From positions 1 through 64,000 of the forward strand of contig JAJYKL010000007.1 in the NCBI GenBank assembly GCA_021788625.1: a stretch of 64,000 nt of DNA. The letters run 5' to 3'. The notes below the pieces were generated by a model. The model saw only the letters and a list, made by a program, of their open reading frames with translations. It did not search any database and was not told the DNA's origin. Made by a program: the position numbers and the translations under genes. Each line of letters opens with the position of its first letter. The first letter of the stretch is position 1. Below are positions 1-33,865 of the stretch, one piece after another. This stretch comes from Chloroflexota bacterium (GTDB lineage: Bacteria; Chloroflexota; Anaerolineae; J036; Brachytrichaceae).

Positions 1-106
1 CAGCTTCGTGTTCGGCGAGGCGCAGATCCAGGTTTGTCGTGGAACCAATGTAGTAGGAACCGTCAGCACATTGGAGGATGTACAGCCAGCCGGATGCTGT
101 TGTCAT
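1..106 (-). CDS. GIY-YIG nuclease family protein, N-terminal part only (truncated by left window edge)
   Basis: Reverse strand from ATG at 106 reads MTTASGWLYILQCADGSYYIGSTTNLDLRLAEHEA, the canonical GIY-YIG N-terminus (W-x-Y-I-L-x-C-x-D-G-S-x-Y-x-G-x-T). Confidence 0.85.
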   Translation of the reverse strand, partial: MTTASGWLYILQCADGSYYIGSTTNLDLRLAEHEA

Positions 107-139
107 GGGTGTATTGCTCTTTAATTGCAACGATGCTCA

Positions 140-787
140 TTGTCTGCCTGTCGTCCTTCGGCAGGCTCAGGATGTACCCTTCGGCAGGCTCAGGATGATC
201 ATTCGGTCAATTCAGGACAATCATGGTGAGCGCTCATGGTGAGCCTGTCGTCCTTCGGCAGGCTCAGGATGTACCCTTCGACAAGCTCAGGATGATCATT
301 TGGTCAATTCAGGATGATCATTCGGTCAATTCAGGATGATCATGGTGAGCGCTCATGGTGAGCCAGTCGTCCTTCGACAAGCTCAGGATGATCATTTGGT
401 CAATTCAGGATGATCATTCGGTCAATTCAGGATGATCATGGTGAGCGCTCATGGTGAGCCTGTCGTCCTTCGGCAGGCTCAGGATGTACCCTTCGACAAG
501 CTCAGGATGATCATTCGGTCAATTCAGGACAATCATGGTGAGCCTGTCGTCCTTCGGCAGGCTCAGGATGTACCCTTCGACAAGCTCAGGATGATCCTTC
601 GGTCAATTCAGGACAATCATGGTGAGCCTGTCGTCCTTCGACAAGCTCAGGATGATCCTTCGACCAGCTCAGGATGATCCTTCGACCAGCTCAGGATGAT
701 CCTTCGACCAGCTCAGGATGATCCTTCGACCAGCTCAGGATGATCCTTCGACCAGCTCAGGATGATCCTTCGACCAGCTCAGGATGA
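140..787. repeat. Array of ~22-23 bp repeat units (CCTTCGRCARGCTCAGGATG family), interspersed with TGAGCGCTCA and ATGATCAT palindromic words
   Basis: Direct reading. Includes six consecutive perfect 22-bp copies of gatgatccttcgaccagctcag at 651-782, plus variant units gatgatcattcggtcaattcag and gatgtacccttcggcaggctcag. Confidence 0.95.
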
Positions 788-2447: not shown

Positions 2448-4187
2448 CTACACTGGCGCAGCCAGAATGGGAGCGGTCAGGTGGGTTACCTGCGCCATGT
2501 CGTCGGGATACAGCTGTGCCATGTTGTCGGGTGTTACGAGTATGTGATCGGTATAAACGGCCGGCGGGGTGGGGCGCCCGTGCAAAATGGCCACGGCCAT
2601 CGAAATGACCTTGATGCCGTAGCTCTGCGGGAAGTAGTCCACCGCTCCGATGAGCATGGGGTCGCATTGCAACAGGCGACGCCGCACGCGTGCACTGGCA
2701 TTCTGGCTGACCACAGCCACATACGACCGGTAGTCCAGAATCTCAGCCGCCGCCAGTGCCCCCAGAGCGGAGTTGGCATTGATGCCCACGAACAGGCATG
2801 TTTTCCCACGCGGGATATCGTGCAACGCCTGGGTCGCCGCCAGTTGCGAACCTTCCAGATCTCCATGCGTGCTGAGATGGATAATCCGGTCGTCGGTCAG
2901 CGCGATAACTGGTCTCAAGGCATCAATCTGTCCTTGAATGCGCGCCGCGGGAATAGGTCCCGACTCGGGCTGTTCCAGGCAGACCACATAATCCAGTTTG
3001 CCATTCCATTGCTCATTCACCCAACTGGCTGCCGCTTCTCCGCCGATGCGACCGGCCCGGTAATTATCAGCGCCGAAGAAGGTAGCGCCGGGCAGGGGGA
3101 TATCGATCGCGATCACCGGAATATGGGCAGATCGATACATATGCATCATGACGTTGTTGGTCTGCTCGTGTTGTTGATACTCAATCGCCAGGTCCACGCC
3201 TGCTTCGATCAGCCCTTTCGCGTTCGTCAGTGCAACGGCCGGATCGGCTTCGTTGTCGGTCAGGACCAAATCTATCGTGCCATCGTCAAAGGCAGCCCGT
3301 TCGATGCTCTGCCGCACGCTGACGGAAAATTCCTGCTTCTCAGTGAGGTTGGCGAAGCCGATGCGCCAGCGCTTGCCGCGATGCCGGTCGGCATACAGTT
3401 CGGTGATGTGCTCGCCGCAGAGCGAGACCTGCACCCCTGCGACGCGCAGTGCATTTAGAGTAACTTCGGGCGCTTTGTCAGCCGTGACTAGATGGTGCGC
3501 TTCGCTAAGCTGGGCCACGCTGACCAGCGCCGAGTGACCCAGTTGTTCGGCCAGCGCGACAACGATCACTTTCCGCCCACTGTGAAAGACAGCCGATTTC
3601 ACTTCGCTACTGGCCAGATCGTCATCCGTGTAACCGCGTTCGGCGCTGATTCCGTCACACCCAATAAAAGCCTTTTGCACTCGCAATTCGCGCAGCAAGG
3701 CCACCGTGGAGTGTCCATCCAGGGTATCCCGTCCGCAACGTAACTGGCCGCCTGTCAGTATGACGGTCTGTGTGGGGTTGCGCGAGAGAGTGGCCGCAAT
3801 CAGTATGCTATTGGTGATGACGGTCAGCGATTTGTGAGAGACAAGCTCCCCGGCCATCTCATCAATGATGGGCCCCCCGGCGAGCACAATAATGTCACCC
3901 TCTTCCACTAGCTCCGCAGCTCGTTTGGCAATGGCGCGAATCTCTTTCTGGTGCCGATCATTTTGAGCTCTGTCAGTGTCCCCCGTCTCCTGTTGCGGCG
4001 TCGGGCGACTGCCCATAACTGCGCCGCCATGAGTACGGATCAGCTCCCCCTGTTTTTCGAGCGTCCGCAGGTCGTTGCGTATCGTGCCGGTAGATACCTG
4101 CAATAACTGCACCAGTTCTGGCAGATGCACTGAGCCACTCTGCAGCAGTAACTCCATGAGTTGTCTACGCCGGGCGTTTGGTTTCAT
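2448..4187 (-). CDS. DeoR-type transcriptional regulator fused to a periplasmic-binding-protein-like sugar-binding domain
   Basis: N-terminus RRRQLMELLLQSGSVHLPELVQLLQVSTGTIRNDLRTLEKQGELIRTHGGAV is a DeoR HTH, followed by a DeoRC-like domain and a C-terminal Peripla_BP-like region (FFGADNYRAGRIGGEAAASWV). Start at 4187 preferred over 4214, which lies almost on the -10 box. Confidence 0.8.
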   Translation of the reverse strand: MKPNARRRQLMELLLQSGSVHLPELVQLLQVSTGTIRNDLRTLEKQGELIRTHGGAVMGSRPTPQQETGDTDRAQNDRHQKEIRAIAKRAAELVEEGDIIVLAGGPIIDEMAGELVSHKSLTVITNSILIAATLSRNPTQTVILTGGQLRCGRDTLDGHSTVALLRELRVQKAFIGCDGISAERGYTDDDLASSEVKSAVFHSGRKVIVVALAEQLGHSALVSVAQLSEAHHLVTADKAPEVTLNALRVAGVQVSLCGEHITELYADRHRGKRWRIGFANLTEKQEFSVSVRQSIERAAFDDGTIDLVLTDNEADPAVALTNAKGLIEAGVDLAIEYQQHEQTNNVMMHMYRSAHIPVIAIDIPLPGATFFGADNYRAGRIGGEAAASWVNEQWNGKLDYVVCLEQPESGPIPAARIQGQIDALRPVIALTDDRIIHLSTHGDLEGSQLAATQALHDIPRGKTCLFVGINANSALGALAAAEILDYRSYVAVVSQNASARVRRRLLQCDPMLIGAVDYFPQSYGIKVISMAVAILHGRPTPPAVYTDHILVTPDNMAQLYPDDMAQVTHLTAPILAAPV

Positions 4188-4216
4188 TATTGCAGCTTTA
4201 CTATCTGTCTTCATTC

Positions 4217-4390: not shown

Positions 4391-6676
4391 ATGCAGCCTA
4401 ATTCGAAATCGCCCGTGCGCGATCTATTTTATGCTGAGCTTATTGACCTGAAAAGGGAAGTCATGGTGTGGGGTCTCATCCTCCCCATCATGGTTCTCGG
4501 TTATGTAGGACTATTAGTCTCCTACCAGGAACCATTCCTGGAACATCCCAATTATCGAGCGATTGTACTTTTCGCGGTCATCTTTTTCATTGGTCTGGGC
4601 TGCGCGCTGCTTAACCGCACCCATCGCCAGCTGGCCTTATGGCTGACCAGTTGGAGCACGTTGGTGATAGCGCTTGCCTTTTTTGTTTCCGGGCTGGACG
4701 GATACACCGCCCTCGGCGTGAGTGTGGCGTGCGGCGCCATCGCCTTGCTGCTGCATCCGTTGCTGGGCTGGCTGGCCGTTCTCCTCTCGGGGTGTGCCAT
4801 TTCAGCCTATGCAATGCTGTACCCTCAGTTGCACTTATGGCCTGGACGGGTCGCGGTGGTGGTGATCACATCCATCTTCGCCACCATCATCGCGCAGGCT
4901 GTTGCCCGAGTACTCTTCCGCGCACTGCGCTGGACGCAAACGAACTACGAGATGGCCCGCCAGCAAGCGGAGACGGTGACGGAAAAGAGCAGCCAGCTGG
5001 CGGCCGCCCTGAAGTCGCTCGAGCGGACCAGCTTCCAGCTGGCGCGCGCCAATGAGCAGATGGAAGTGGCGATGCGCTATGCTGAAGAGGCGCGCCTGTC
5101 GAAGCAGCAATTCGCTGCTTCGGTCAGCCACGAGCTGCGCGCCCCCCTGAATCTGATCATTGGTTTCAGCGACCTCGTCGTTAATGAACCCGAGCACTAC
5201 CATACAGACCTGGACCCCAAGCTGCTGGCCGACATCCGCGTCATCAACAATCATGCACAGCACCTGCTCAAGCTGGTGAATGACATCCTGGATCTGAGCC
5301 AGATGGATGTCAATTACCTGACCGTAGTCCAGGAACCGGTGCAGGTCAGTGAAATCGTGCAGGAGGCGATCGCGGACTTCAACTATCTGGTCACGCAGCA
5401 TGGGCTCAGGCTGGAGGTGGACATTGAACCGGGCCTGCCGACTGTGATGGCGGATGCCACCCGCATCCGCGAGGTGCTGACCAACCTGCTCAGCAACGCA
5501 TTGCGCGTGACGAGCCAGGGTGAAATCAGCGTCCAGGCGCGCCGGTGGGTTAATGACAACCAGCAGGCACCGTCAACCGGCGCGACACACGAGATACTGG
5601 TCAGCGTTCGTGATACGGGTATGGGCATTTCGGAGGCTGACCTGCGGCGCATTTTCGAGCCATTTGTCCAGATTGCCGGGTCCGACCCGCAGAAGCACTC
5701 AGGCTCCGGACTGGGTCTGACGATCAGCCGGAAATTCGTCGAGTTGCATGGCGGACGCATGTGGGTGGATAGCACGCTTGGCCAGGGTAGCACCTTCTAC
5801 TTCACCATCCCCGTGGCCGGCGCGGAACCGGCCTCCTCTCCGCAACGAACCATGCGGGAAATGAAACGGCGCGAAGTGGGTACGCTGACGGTTGTCGAGC
5901 GGTCCGCCGTACTGTCACGGCTGGTCGAGCGCCATATCACCGGCATGCAGGTGGAATCGGTGCCCTCGATCGACGACCTGTGCATCGATAGCGACCGATC
6001 GGTTGAAGTGATCCTTATCAATGAGCCTTTCACAGGCGGTGGGCAATTGCCTGAATTACCTGCAGCGCTCCATCGGGTGCCCGTCTTTCGCTGCTACGTG
6101 CACGAGGCGCTTTCGTCCCTGCGCCCAAACGAGAACCTTTCCGGGGGATTGCATGACTATCTGATCAAACCGGTGAACCGCGAGCAGCTCTATGCGGTGC
6201 TCAAGCGGTTGCTGTCTGCCGAACCGGGAAAACAGAACCGGCCTGCCCATGTGCTCATCGTTGAAGATGAGGAAGATGCCTCCTACATGCTAAACCGCAT
6301 GCTGCGCCTGGCGCCGCCGGAAGTATTTGCTGCTTTTGATGGCATCACCATCACGCGGGCACGCTCGGGCGAGCAAGCCTTGCAGATACTGGAAGGCTGC
6401 TCGGAGCCGGGCGGCGCATGGGTGGATGCTGTGCTCCTGGATCTGGTGCTGGGCAGCCTCAGCGGCTTTGCCGTGCTTTCAGAAATGGAGCTTCACCCGA
6501 GCTGGCGCAGTATACCGGTGTGCGTCATCACCGGTCAGGTTGCCACGGGCGACCTGCTGGTCACACCTTATCTATCCTTTTCACGTCAGGGCGGTTTGAC
6601 GGCGCGCGAGCTGGCACAGGCCGTAACGGCGCTTACGAAGATTGCACTGCCAGGGGTGGAGGTGGCGGCCCAATAA
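4391..6676 (+). CDS. Membrane hybrid sensor histidine kinase with two C-terminal receiver-like domains
   Basis: N-terminal TM segments, H-box FAASVSHELRAPLNLIIGF, N-box LLSNAL, G-box GSGLGLTISRKFVELHGG; C-terminal receiver VLIVEDEEDASYML...DAVLLDLVL. Confidence 0.88.
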   Translation: MQPNSKSPVRDLFYAELIDLKREVMVWGLILPIMVLGYVGLLVSYQEPFLEHPNYRAIVLFAVIFFIGLGCALLNRTHRQLALWLTSWSTLVIALAFFVSGLDGYTALGVSVACGAIALLLHPLLGWLAVLLSGCAISAYAMLYPQLHLWPGRVAVVVITSIFATIIAQAVARVLFRALRWTQTNYEMARQQAETVTEKSSQLAAALKSLERTSFQLARANEQMEVAMRYAEEARLSKQQFAASVSHELRAPLNLIIGFSDLVVNEPEHYHTDLDPKLLADIRVINNHAQHLLKLVNDILDLSQMDVNYLTVVQEPVQVSEIVQEAIADFNYLVTQHGLRLEVDIEPGLPTVMADATRIREVLTNLLSNALRVTSQGEISVQARRWVNDNQQAPSTGATHEILVSVRDTGMGISEADLRRIFEPFVQIAGSDPQKHSGSGLGLTISRKFVELHGGRMWVDSTLGQGSTFYFTIPVAGAEPASSPQRTMREMKRREVGTLTVVERSAVLSRLVERHITGMQVESVPSIDDLCIDSDRSVEVILINEPFTGGGQLPELPAALHRVPVFRCYVHEALSSLRPNENLSGGLHDYLIKPVNREQLYAVLKRLLSAEPGKQNRPAHVLIVEDEEDASYMLNRMLRLAPPEVFAAFDGITITRARSGEQALQILEGCSEPGGAWVDAVLLDLVLGSLSGFAVLSEMELHPSWRSIPVCVITGQVATGDLLVTPYLSFSRQGGLTARELAQAVTALTKIALPGVEVAAQ

Positions 6677-7829
6677 GATGCTCCAGCATTTCGCGCAGTT
6701 GGGCGGCCGTATGCGGACGCGGGAGTATCGCGCTCGCCCCCAGGGCATAAGCCAGGTCGGGGTTGCGTAACACCGAACACACCACCACTGGAATATGGAT
6801 GGTAGCCGGGTGCGACTTGAGCAGGGCCAAAACTTCCCAACCGTCGCGGCCTGGCATCATGACGTCGAGCAGGATGCAACTGGGTTGCAGGGTCTGCGCC
6901 TGCAAGAGCGCCTCTTCGGCGCGCGTGATGGCCACCAGGTCGAATTGCGTCCGGGCGAGGTAGCGCCGGGTAAGCTCGATTGCGTCGACGTTATCGTCAA
7001 TCATCATCACACGCTGCCGGGCATCGGCGGCGATCGAAAGCAGCACTTGCATGGAAGTCGGCCCGGCATCCGGAATGGTGACACGAAAACCCGCCTGTTG
7101 CGCCAGCTGGCGTAATTCCAAGAGGCTGTCTTCCGAGACAGCCGGCTCGCAAGGCTGCGATGTGTAATGAGTTAAAGAGAGACGTAACTCGTGATCCACC
7201 AAATCGCTCTGGATGGACAGCAGCCCGCCACAGTCCCCGTGTATGGCAAAGGTGATTGCTGCAATGAGCAGTTGCCGCACCAGCGTGCGGTTGGCCCACG
7301 CAACCGGCGCCTGCTGTGGTAAAGCGACCTGCACGTCCACATTTTTCCGGCTCAGCAATGGGTCGATGAGACCCAACACGGCCTGCAGCAGATCATCCAG
7401 CCGAAGGAACTCATAAGGCTCTGCCGAAGCCGATGCGGGCGCAGGGGAGCGCTCACCGGCCTCTGGAACCGCGCCTGGTTGACGCTCGGTGAGAAAGAGG
7501 AGCGTCGCCACGGCTTCGATGCCGCGGTCCTGTTCGCGACGTAACTGGCGCAGACTGATGTTCAGCTCAGTCGCCGCTTCTGCTTGCGTGAGGCCGCGCA
7601 GGTAGCGCTGCTCTAGTGCATTGTACAGACGCCAGGCCAGCGACCCGGGTGAAACATCGCTGGCTGGCTTCAATTGCTGCACCAGACCCAGGAGCTTGGC
7701 CTGCAGGTCGGCGGCGTTCCGCGCGAGGTTAAGATCGTGGATCGTGTCCAGGCTACGCTGGAGATAAGCCAGATCATAGACGCGTTCCAGCACGTCACGT
7801 GTCCAGGTAATCCGTTCTGGTGAAATCAT
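6633..7829 (-). CDS. HTH-like + HATPase-like region + C-terminal response regulator receiver domain
   Basis: LTQAEAATELNISLRQLRREQDRG (HTH-like); C-terminal receiver RVMMIDDNVDAIELTRRYL...CILLDVMMPGRDGWEVL. Confidence 0.75.
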   Translation of the reverse strand: MISPERITWTRDVLERVYDLAYLQRSLDTIHDLNLARNAADLQAKLLGLVQQLKPASDVSPGSLAWRLYNALEQRYLRGLTQAEAATELNISLRQLRREQDRGIEAVATLLFLTERQPGAVPEAGERSPAPASASAEPYEFLRLDDLLQAVLGLIDPLLSRKNVDVQVALPQQAPVAWANRTLVRQLLIAAITFAIHGDCGGLLSIQSDLVDHELRLSLTHYTSQPCEPAVSEDSLLELRQLAQQAGFRVTIPDAGPTSMQVLLSIAADARQRVMMIDDNVDAIELTRRYLARTQFDLVAITRAEEALLQAQTLQPSCILLDVMMPGRDGWEVLALLKSHPATIHIPVVVCSVLRNPDLAYALGASAILPRPHTAAQLREMLEHLIGPPPPPLAVQSS

Positions 7830-7939
7830 GAATCCAGGTACAAAACGGCCAGTTTTCGGCCAGCTACGTCCTTGCTATGGCGCTCCGATTTTGGTAGCTT
7901 TAGAACGGCTAGCGATTGATCGCAAGGTATTATGCATTT

Positions 7940-8016
7940 ATTCTGAGCTTGTCGAAGGGTACATCCTTGGCCTGCCGAAGGACGACAGGCTCATCATGAG
8001 CGCTCACCATGACGTT
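7940..8016. repeat. Copy of the CCTTCGACAAGCTCAGGATG repeat family, inverted relative to the array at 140-787
   Basis: Contains tgagcttgtcgaagggtacatcctt and gcctgccgaaggacgacaggctcatcatgagcgctcaccatgac, the reverse complement of the 5' array motifs. Confidence 0.9.
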
Positions 8017-8237: not shown

Positions 8238-9641
8238 ATGTCAAAATCAATCAGTCGCCGCAACTTTCTTAAAATGGCAGCTGTAACAGGTGCGGGTGCC
8301 GCCCTGGCAGCGTGTGCGCCGCAAGCAGCGCCAACCCCACAAACGATCGTCGTGACAGCAACGGGCGGTGCATCAAATGCTGCGCAAACCACCACAGCGC
8401 CGAAGACATTCACTGGTCAAATGCGCGTCCTGATCGGTGCAGGCGCTCCCGTCGAACCAGTCAACCAGCTCATCACTGCATCCTTCACCGGACAGTATCC
8501 AGGAATGCAGATTAAATTTGAATATACCCAGCCTAACTTTGAAGAGCAGGTCTATACCTCGGCAGCCGCCGGGACACTGGCAGACGTCTTCCTCTGCGCT
8601 GACCTGTGGGTAGTGCCCTTTGCGCTGCACGGGGTGACGCTCGACCTCAGACCGGCCGCTGAAGCCGATTCCGACGTAAAGCTGGACGACGTCTTCCCGA
8701 ACATGTTGGGGCTGAGCACCTACAATAACCGGATTGTTATGTTCCCATCCGGCCTCGATGTTGTCTCCCAGTACTATAACAAGACCCTGCTGACGAAAGC
8801 AGGAGCCGAGATTCCAACCGATAAATGGACCTGGGATGATTACGTCAACAATATGAAGAAGGTGACTGCTCTGCAGAAGGATGCTCAGGGTCAGCCGATG
8901 TATTGGGGCTTGGATAATGGCACCTGGAACTGGTGGGCCACCGTTTATCCATGGGTCAAGGGCTACGGCGGAGACATTGTCGCCAATAATGGTGCGAAAT
9001 CCACCTGGGCCGATCCCAAGACACTGGCCGGCCTCAAGGCGTATACCGATCTTTGGGTGACTGATAACATCGCCCAACCGTTGAGCGTGGACCTGGGCGG
9101 CTCGGCGTTCCAACTGGGCCGGGCAGCGACCTACTTCCATATCCAGGGCGTTCGACAGGGTCTGCGCGATGCAATCAAGAACAAGTTCGATTGGGACGTC
9201 CAGCTGGTACCCACCATGCCAGATGGCAAGCATCGCACAGGCATGGGCACCTGGGGCATGTCGGTCTACTCGAAGAGCAAGATGGTGGATGCCGGTTACC
9301 AATACGTGAAACGCCTCATCGAGCCATCTGTTCAACGCTTGATGGCCAAGCAAATGCTGGCCGTTCCTCTGCTCAAGTCGGTGGCGAATGATCCAACGTG
9401 GATGGACGGAGTTCCCACACCGCCGAAGAACCTGATGGCTTATGTGAAGGGTGCTGATGACGCCATCCTGCCGTACATGAACTATCCAGGCGCCTGCGGC
9501 AGCTTCTATGCCGGCCAGGTCAGCAAAGCTTATCAAGATGCTCTGGAAGCGGTCTTGCGCAAGAAGAGCACGCTCGAACAGGCATTCGGCGATGCAGACA
9601 AGACGATCCAGACCTGCCTGGACCAGAATAAGACTCAGTAA
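8238..9641 (+). CDS. Sugar ABC transporter substrate-binding lipoprotein
   Basis: Twin-arginine-like plus lipobox leader MSKSISRRNFLKMAAVTGAGAALAACAP; SBP_bac_1-like body; followed by two permeases. Confidence 0.88.
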   Translation: MSKSISRRNFLKMAAVTGAGAALAACAPQAAPTPQTIVVTATGGASNAAQTTTAPKTFTGQMRVLIGAGAPVEPVNQLITASFTGQYPGMQIKFEYTQPNFEEQVYTSAAAGTLADVFLCADLWVVPFALHGVTLDLRPAAEADSDVKLDDVFPNMLGLSTYNNRIVMFPSGLDVVSQYYNKTLLTKAGAEIPTDKWTWDDYVNNMKKVTALQKDAQGQPMYWGLDNGTWNWWATVYPWVKGYGGDIVANNGAKSTWADPKTLAGLKAYTDLWVTDNIAQPLSVDLGGSAFQLGRAATYFHIQGVRQGLRDAIKNKFDWDVQLVPTMPDGKHRTGMGTWGMSVYSKSKMVDAGYQYVKRLIEPSVQRLMAKQMLAVPLLKSVANDPTWMDGVPTPPKNLMAYVKGADDAILPYMNYPGACGSFYAGQVSKAYQDALEAVLRKKSTLEQAFGDADKTIQTCLDQNKTQ

Positions 9642-9782
9642 AATTCATCATTCATGGGGGGCGCGCCACTCTGTGAGCCAGCGCCCCCCAATCCGTGAGG
9701 CGCGTCCTCTTTCAGGTGGCCTGGTCTGAGGCAGAAAATACGGCTGCGGATTGTGAGCCACTTACAGTAGGTAGATAAAACC

Positions 9783-10742
9783 ATGACTTCAATCGCTGGT
9801 ACTGCATCATCACAAAACCGGGTGAAGTCGTTTGTGTCTGCGTTGACAGCAACCAAACACCGACGAGACACAATCGAGGGTTATCTATTCATTTTGCCAG
9901 TGGTGCTCGGCCTGTTGATTTTCACGCTGGGGCCCATGGTTGCCTCGTTGTATTTCAGTTTCACCAAGTTCGATATATTGAGCTCACCAATCTGGATCGG
10001 GCTGGGCAACTACATTACGATGTTCACCCAGGACCAGTACTTCTGGTTATCCTGCAAGGTGACGCTGATTTATGCGTTTACATCGGTGCCACTCGGAATT
10101 ATTGGCGGGTTCATGCTGGCATTGCTCCTGAATCAGAAGGTAAAAGGCATTGCCTTCTTCCGGACCTGCTTTTATATTCCGACGGTGGTGCCTGCCATCG
10201 CAAGTGCCGTCCTGTGGTCATGGTTGATGAACCCGGATTACGGCCTGATTAACGCGGCCCTCGCCATTCTGCACATCCCGCCCTACTCATTCCTTGGACA
10301 GCCTGAAACCGCCTTACCCTCACTCGTGCTCATGAGCTTGTGGGGCATCGGTGGAGGCATGGTCATTTACCTGGCCGGGCTGCAGGGCATCCCCGAGTCA
10401 TTGTACGAAGCCGCCAAGATCGACGGCGCCAATGAATGGGACCTATTCTGGCACATCACCATCCCGATGATGACACCTACCGTCTTCTTTAACCTGGTGA
10501 TGGGACTGATTGGCGCCTTCCAGGTCTTTATTCAGGCATTCGTCATGACGTCGGGAGGGCCACTCCATGCGACCTACTTTTACAACCTGATGCTCTATGA
10601 GCGGGCATTCGGTTTCCTGCAAATGGGCATGGCGTCGTCCATGGCGTGGTTCCTTTGTGTTTTCATCCTCGTAATGACACTGCTCGTCTTCCGCAGCTCC
10701 ACGTTTTGGGTCTTTTATGAGACCGGTGAGGAAAACCAATGA
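9783..10742 (+). CDS. Sugar ABC transporter permease (MalF/UgpA type)
   Basis: Six-TM permease with EAA loop YEAAKIDGANEWDLFWHITIPMM. Confidence 0.92.
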   Translation: MTSIAGTASSQNRVKSFVSALTATKHRRDTIEGYLFILPVVLGLLIFTLGPMVASLYFSFTKFDILSSPIWIGLGNYITMFTQDQYFWLSCKVTLIYAFTSVPLGIIGGFMLALLLNQKVKGIAFFRTCFYIPTVVPAIASAVLWSWLMNPDYGLINAALAILHIPPYSFLGQPETALPSLVLMSLWGIGGGMVIYLAGLQGIPESLYEAAKIDGANEWDLFWHITIPMMTPTVFFNLVMGLIGAFQVFIQAFVMTSGGPLHATYFYNLMLYERAFGFLQMGMASSMAWFLCVFILVMTLLVFRSSTFWVFYETGEENQ

Positions 10743-11861: not shown

Positions 11862-12317
11862 ATCATGGTGAGCGCTCATGGTGAGCCCGTCGTCCTTCGA
11901 CAAGCTCAGGATGAGAATGGTGAGCCTGTCGAACCACCTTCGGCAGGCTCAGGATGATCATTCGGTTAATTCAGGATGATCATGGTGAGCTTGTCGAACC
12001 ATCCTTCGACAAGCTCAGGATGATCATTCGATTAATTCAGGATGATCATGGTGAGCCTGTCGAACCACCTTCGACCAGCTCAGGATGAAAGTAGTGAGCG
12101 GCTGATCATGGTGAGCCTGTCGAACCACCTTCGGCACGCTCAGGATGACCATCGTGGTCAACTGATCATGGTGAGCCTGTCGAACCACCTTCGACCAGCT
12201 CAGGATGAAAGTTGTGACCTGCTGATCATGGTGAGCGCTCATGGTGAGCCCGTCGTCCTTCGACAAGCTCAGGATGAGAATGGTGAGCCTGTCGAACCAC
12301 CTTCGACCAGCTCAGTG
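11862..12317. repeat. Second large array of the CCTTCGACAAGCTCAGGATG repeat family with hairpin-forming GTCGAACCACCTTCGAC modules
   Basis: Direct reading; perfect 12-bp inverted arms GAGCTTGTCGAA (11987-11998) / TTCGACAAGCTC (12005-12016), and a near-perfect pair at 11922-11933 / 11939-11950. Confidence 0.95.
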
Positions 12318-33748: not shown

Positions 33749-33865
33749 GGTGAGCGCTCATGGTGAGCCAGTCGTCCTTCGACAGGCTCAGGATGTACCC
33801 TTCGACAGGCTCAGGATGTACCCTTCGACAGGCTCAGGATGTACCCTTCGGCAGGCTCACGATAA
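33749..33865. repeat. Small array of the CCTTCGACAAGCTCAGGATG repeat family
   Basis: catggtgagcgctcatggtgagccagtcgtccttcgacaggctcaggatgtaccc followed by three further CTTCGRCAGGCTC units. Confidence 0.93.

Follow-up and report, generated by a model that had tools for sequence, protein, structure and literature searches.

Small GIY-YIG nucleases of one subfamily adjoin tagged hairpin repeats whose sequence follows that of the enzyme

A nuclease gene cut at the start of a Chloroflexota contig and the array of hairpin units beside it probably belong together as the two components of one REP-like system, in which a GIY-YIG nuclease of one particular subfamily (hereafter subfamily A) recognises tagged hairpins and in which cutting and repair multiply these units. 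The link between enzyme and repeat is strongly supported for subfamily A: in about a dozen phyla these genes adjoin hairpins with covarying stems, whose tag and inner sequence correspond to the nuclease.

The nuclease gene and its hairpin units

The window, i.e. the whole stretch of 64,000 nucleotides analysed, comes from a draft genome of 4.5 Mb (G000), which is 92% complete and consists of 204 contigs. From an ATG at position 106, the reverse strand (106 to 1) translates as MTTASGWLYILQCADGSYYIGSTTNLDLRLAEHEA, the first 35 codons of a GIY-YIG gene. This translation matched the Pfam family PF01541 above the cut-off (E 5.9e-8), confirming the GIY-YIG N-terminus that an earlier note on this DNA had recognised here. 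Since the window starts at base 1 of its contig (C155), the truncation is an effect of the assembly and not of biology; the first 35 residues of the protein are readable and its C-terminal tail lies beyond the contig end. The only other PF01541 protein found in the same genome is a 683-aa frame, UvrC-like by length. A rhamnose catabolism block (isomerase, mutarotase and DeoR regulator) adjoins the array. Next to its L-rhamnose isomerase and mutarotase genes, a single ORF (2448–4214, reverse strand) combines a DeoR HTH, a sensor domain and a periplasmic-binding-protein domain.

Searching the window for CCTTCGRCARGCTCAGGATG with up to three mismatches retrieved 29 matches, against 0.02 expected from dinucleotide shuffles. 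More than half of them (16/29) lie at 155–786 and the rest at 7939–7981, 11894–12276 and 33776–33864 (Table 1). The earlier note had described an array of more than 600 bp flanking the nuclease gene and units that recur at 7.9, 11.9–12.3 and 33.8 kb, always between genes; the array measures 630 bp and all four sites indeed fall between ORFs. The array contains head-to-head pairs of units (~234–271, 449–486, 534–570 and 618–655) and a 22-bp tandem at 635–786, the tandem periods near the nuclease being 22–23 bp and ~84–119 bp. Another head-to-head pair, at ~11978–12025, reads GATCATGG-TGAGCTTGTCGAA-CCATCC-TTCGACAAGCTCA-GGATGATC; units often occur in such pairs, which were seen in this window and in many genomes. 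The genome-wide count that the same note had put forward as a check turned up the 15-nt core 108 times without mismatch (reversed control, 0) and TGAGCYTGTCGAA 152 times (control, 0). Four relatives of the same genus (G001–G004) hold 0–2 copies, as compared with these 152, and none of them showed an A gene. An Rfam search of the window gave no family match. The word CCTTCGACAAGCTCAGG, which encodes HPELVEG/LSLSKD, and its relatives are, we presume, among the commonest intergenic repeats of environmental bacteria.

Table 1 Positions of the nuclease gene and of the hairpin units in the window
Feature	Positions	Strand	Basis or context
Subfamily A small single-domain GIY-YIG nuclease, 5' part	1–106	-	Translation, PF01541, A-family alignment, contig start
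Hairpin-unit array, stem-TGAGCYTGTCGAA-stem', with degenerate copies CGGTCAATTCAGGA	155–787		
Two degenerate units	7939–7981	-	Between response-regulator gene (6633–7829) and TAT-signal protein (8238–9641)
Unit cluster including head-to-head pairs	11894–12303		Between ABC permease and MarR-type regulator
Four tandem units, 23-bp period	33776–33864	-	Between transglutaminase-like/TPR gene and ABC-2 membrane protein

Read on the other strand, the repeat word is a hairpin, CATCC-TGAGCTTGTCGAA-GGATG, that is, a core between two stem arms. Identical cores carry other stems elsewhere (GTTGCC..GGCAAC and CGGCGGC..GCCGCCG in G024), and the generalised unit consists of a 5' tag, a covarying stem of 4–5 bp, the core [T/C]GAG-inner-[T/C]CGA[A/G] and the second stem arm. 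The inner sequence is of several types: CYTG, GGNNC, CGNAG and TAG-hairpin-GTA. We measured stem pairing on 348 typed cores near 96 nuclease genes, demanding no stem beyond the core. At stem positions 1–5 the paired fractions were 0.97, 0.95, 0.94, 0.74 and 0.61, against 0.52, 0.46, 0.53, 0.48 and 0.35 with shuffled 3' sides. Each position shows several pair types, and the closing T-A pair of the core is also swapped for C-G.

Subfamily A and its repeats across bacteria

The small GIY-YIG genes of relatives sort into subfamilies, among which A is marked by the motifs GSYYxGST/GHT and E-K/R-Q-V/I-Q/K-G-W-S-R. At first, the exact core was found nearby only for the gene of our window and for one in G024, both of subfamily A, other A genes having variant units on their flanks. 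The exact CYTG core was rejected as sole search word, as it made most relatives appear negative. Because unit types vary by lineage, the link became visible only after the GIY-YIG proteins had been split into subfamilies and the core generalised.

Scanning 85,000 species genomes with the A alignment yielded 80 loci spread over about a dozen phyla, among them Chloroflexota, Bacteroidota, Cyanobacteria, Actinomycetota, Pseudomonadota, Spirochaetota and Cloacimonadota. The density of strict units around these genes was 4.49 per kb within 250 bp, 0.47 per kb at 250–500 bp and 0.015–0.056 per kb beyond 1 kb, a near/far enrichment of ~100-fold. A strict unit occurs within 600 bp in 56 of the 80 loci, and most of the other 24 have relaxed forms. 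Within a set of 33 genomes, units were present at 19 of 22 A paralogs and at 0 of 40 non-A GIY-YIG genes, a control valid only for TGAG..TCGAA units because genes of another subfamily (C) carry other repeats; among UPF0213-type (subfamily B) genes, none of 13 had units. The earlier note had asked whether GIY-YIG genes of this subfamily lie near arrays more often than other genes do, and these counts show that they do. An assumption-free comparison of the 5' and 3' flanks found a 13-mer common to both at 54/102 A, 17/28 C, 14/19 D and 1/20 B loci, and at 12/424 random ones.

The catalytic positions Y5, Y15, G17, R25, H29 and E62 are invariant or nearly so in the A family, which has the conserved catalytic Tyr, Tyr, Arg, His and Glu of PF01541. 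The AlphaFold2 model displays the usual GIY-YIG domain (mean pLDDT 81), with the coding tail from residue ~90 as a low-confidence helix. By sequence, the nearest solved relatives are the UPF0213 proteins 1zg2 and 1ywl; Foldseek likewise matched 1zg2, the UvrC and I-TevI domains scoring far weaker. At several A genes (e.g., L112, L148, L194 and L200) the 3' end extends into the flanking unit, so that the protein tails include translated repeat (SELVEG, FDYAQ, LRLRSG). This offers a ready explanation for the odd tails of GIY-YIG database entries.

From the unit type next to the nuclease one can also predict which type is abundant in the whole genome; this holds for GGNNC (median 10.5 vs 1, p 7e-6) and for CGNAG (12.5 vs 3, p 0.005), but not for CYTG (p 0.18). 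In a set of 400 genomes from the phylum, 20 or more CYTG copies were present in 9/18 genomes with and in 29/382 without an A gene (p 6e-6, not corrected for phylogeny). Such a comparison of copy number with and without the nuclease had been suggested in the earlier note. But the A gene was not detected in the CYTG-rich G150 (637 copies), G388 (228) and G056 (57, single contig). Abundant repeats in genomes without the nuclease, which that note had named as a refuting case, hence do occur in part. Together with G134, these Chloroflexota genomes range from 57 to 637 CYTG units with no A nuclease found. They may have lost the enzyme, use another GIY-YIG subfamily, or have assembly gaps at repeats; REPs without RAYTs occur likewise.

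Correspondence of nuclease and unit, and inheritance of the locus

The tree of 109 A proteins contains two clades, A1 and A2, and along it the tag, G at -6 versus pyrimidine-C at -6,-5, switches once (82 vs 11 genes). The tag is one-sided: in clade A1, 98% of 160 short units have G at -6, with C as 3' partner in 63%. Clade A2 units and those of our own genome have TC at -6,-5; the tags observed are GATC/GGTC-AT in our units and TGTC/CCTC followed by A in those of A2. Five genomes (G451, G462, G469, G478 and G479) have one A1 and one A2 paralog, each surrounded by its own tag. When the tag was called from the nearest-neighbour clade in a new sample of Bacteroidota, 49 of 53 calls were right.

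Independently, the C-terminal tail of the protein corresponds to the inner sequence: AYRD goes with GGNNC, ECxNETH with CGNAG, KNYTQ with CYTG and AKKIF with TAG-hairpin-GTA. Agreement was complete over the typed tails, 'other' tails being left out (81/81 genes, as against a mean of 22 and a maximum of 42 in 20,000 permutations). As this rule had been spotted by eye in the first data, it was frozen and then tried on 247 additional Bacteroidota genomes, all but one of them new to the analysis, where it held in 39/39 cases (permutation mean 14.7, maximum 27). Genes share kinship, so that neither the 81 nor the 39 agreements are independent events; on a tree built without the tail, the well-supported branches gave 7 contrasts, all concordant and too few pairs for significance. 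Members of clade A2 follow the tail rule although it was derived mainly from A1. Agreement is also found on both flanks (5'-side units, 85/89; 3'-side units, 107/108), and the 5' side alone makes it clear that the match is not just linkage to the 3' end of the gene. At the level of sequence, the A nuclease and its unit type are cognate partners, domain clade being paired with tag and tail with inner sequence.

The nuclease locus and its flanks are common to Olleya, Aestuariivivens and Pontimicrobium, and syntenic loci were also found among three Anaerolineae and in two cyanobacteria. Within the Olleya, Aestuariivivens and Pontimicrobium trio, tail and unit type vary (ECxNE/CGNAG vs AYRD/GGNNC). 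A genes are scarce in plasmids, phages and viral contigs, the latter having given 4 weak relatives only. Judged by synteny, the nuclease locus is inherited vertically at a fixed chromosomal site. Unit number varies at orthologous sites, by gains as well as losses (L215/L218 and L182/L253). In L142 (~9780–9900) a unit is nested in the loop of a second one, whose counterpart in the related genome (L143, 9862) is uninterrupted, which suggests that unit loops may serve as insertion or copying targets. A search for empty sites of dispersed units compared a single site (L182 vs L253), which was not clean.

Related systems and explanations

The closest known parallel is that of REP/REPIN sequences and their RAYT (TnpAREP) transposases. 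On both sides there are small, tagged, imperfect palindromes that form hairpins, dispersed between genes in tens to hundreds of copies and often head-to-head, with a single-copy chromosomal gene between repeats and an enzyme sequence matched to that of the repeat. The tail residues at the C-terminus of RAYTs touch the tag (PMC8266576). By contrast, the enzyme here is a GIY-YIG hydrolytic nuclease (PF01541) and not an HUH tyrosine transposase, and the tags are [C/T]G or TC/TGTC instead of GTAG. We consider the system RAYT-like but not a member of that class, because it has neither an HUH transposase nor a GTAG tag. The earlier note had envisaged a system of the REP/RAYT kind built on a GIY-YIG nuclease: adjacency and the tag and inner code speak for it, and spread or maintenance of the repeats by the enzyme is our interpretation of them. 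UPF0213/YhbQ-like proteins (1zg2, 1ywl), the nearest solved relatives by sequence and fold, differ in lacking repeat flanks (0/13 and 1/20 in the above counts for subfamily B). GIY-YIG homing endonucleases (I-TevI and free-standing phage enzymes) share the catalytic fold and the cutting followed by repair-driven copying proposed here; unlike them, the A genes are chromosomal and rare in phages, have no intron or intein, and would target dispersed hairpins. In the open-access literature that we searched, we found no paper joining GIY-YIG to REP or to the repeat words.

Other GIY-YIG genes have repeats of their own. Subfamily C (GTLYxGVT) adjoins hairpins tagged CGTC, TGTC or CCTC (e.g., CGTCATTCCCGCGAAAGCGGGAATCC, TGTCATTCTGAGTGAAACGAAGAATCTC and CGTCATCCTCGGGCTTGACCCGAGGATCC), at loci L416, L418–L421, L423 and L424 as well as L092, L095, L099, L103–L106, L272–L273 and L286. 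Its plasmid hosts are Shinella, Sphingobium, Novosphingobium aromaticivorans, Sinorhizobium meliloti, Planktothrix and Spirosoma, and around the C-type genes present on many chromosomes hairpin density is 2.02 per kb near and 0.17 per kb far. The loci of subfamily D (..STK/IPWKLVY..) whose flanks have 13-mers in common are L279, L280, L282, L294, L296–L298, L300, L302, L303, L306 and L308–L310. According to Di Nocera et al. 2013 (PMC3733652), there is a second super-family of REPs, comprising four families, tagged CGTC (TGTC, CCTC) with AT first stem pairs, which 'apparently lack[s] a dedicated transposase'; GIY-YIG goes unmentioned in that paper. These CGTC REPs appear to resemble our units in the one-sided CGTC/TGTC/CCTC tag, the AT first pairs, the head-to-head dimers and the occurrence in many phyla, and clade A2 and C-type genes adjoin repeats with such tags; the [C/T]G tag of clade A1 units sets these apart. 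Given the TGTC/CCTC-A tags of A2 and the CGTC-type hairpins beside C genes, GIY-YIG nucleases make good candidates for the enzyme that CGTC REPs have so far lacked.

In the mechanism that we favour, the A nuclease would recognise the tagged imperfect hairpin through its domain, matched by clade to the 5' tag, and through its C-terminal tail, matched to the loop. It would nick or cut the hairpin when extruded or single-stranded, e.g., on the lagging strand, and repair of the cut would copy units locally (as tandem and nested gains) and now and then elsewhere. Small non-autonomous hairpins would multiply in this way, with the nuclease gene remaining at its fixed chromosomal site. GIY-YIG enzymes cleave DNA by hydrolysis and are not known to transfer strands, so that copying would have to be left to host repair, as it is in homing. 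Binding, DNA cleavage, movement, cleavage-driven copying and the direction of cause are what we infer from the sequence patterns.

The main competitor, which we judge unlikely, is host-side maintenance: the nuclease would be a domesticated enzyme of repair or structure resolution, cutting extruded hairpins against replication trouble and so limiting or processing the repeats, with the flanking units autoregulating its gene and something else spreading them. Such a role would suit the vertical inheritance at a fixed locus, the near-absence from mobile DNA, the conserved catalytic positions and the existence of orphan repeat-rich genomes. However, no other spreader was found, our own genome having no match to Y1 transposases, and tail and tag track the adjoining unit type and, for two types, genome-wide abundance, a pattern no less in keeping with a driver. 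In a second alternative, RAYT (Y1/HUH) transposases would spread the units, which would then be ordinary REPs, and the GIY-YIG gene would be a passenger: the units are REP-like in their hairpin, one-sided tag and head-to-head pairs, and many repeat-rich genomes do have Y1 genes. Nevertheless, PF01797 (Y1) had 0 matches in our own genome and likewise in the unit-rich G472, G473, G479, G480 and G482, which largely refutes RAYTs as drivers; with tags other than GTAG and a clade and tail code that binds the units to GIY-YIG, this explanation is hardly credible. It is also very improbable that the units serve the nuclease gene only by terminating or regulating its transcription, or that they are hot spots of insertion that received it. 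Intergenic hairpins can terminate transcription, and no more than tens of bases separate units from the gene, but they are found on both sides of it and dispersed genome-wide far from it, and in hosts that are not related their type still goes with the tail of the protein.

A broader reading, which in our opinion is as likely as not, takes single-domain GIY-YIG nucleases of subfamilies A and C, and perhaps also of D, as the enzymes dedicated to a very large group of bacterial hairpin repeats, CGTC REPs included; these repeats would multiply by hairpin cleavage and host repair under a modular clade and tail code. A cognate enzyme would explain the origin of the word CCTTCGACAAGCTCAGG and its relatives. 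The tail-to-loop code provides ready predictions for biochemistry and may be a source of small sequence- and structure-specific nucleases.
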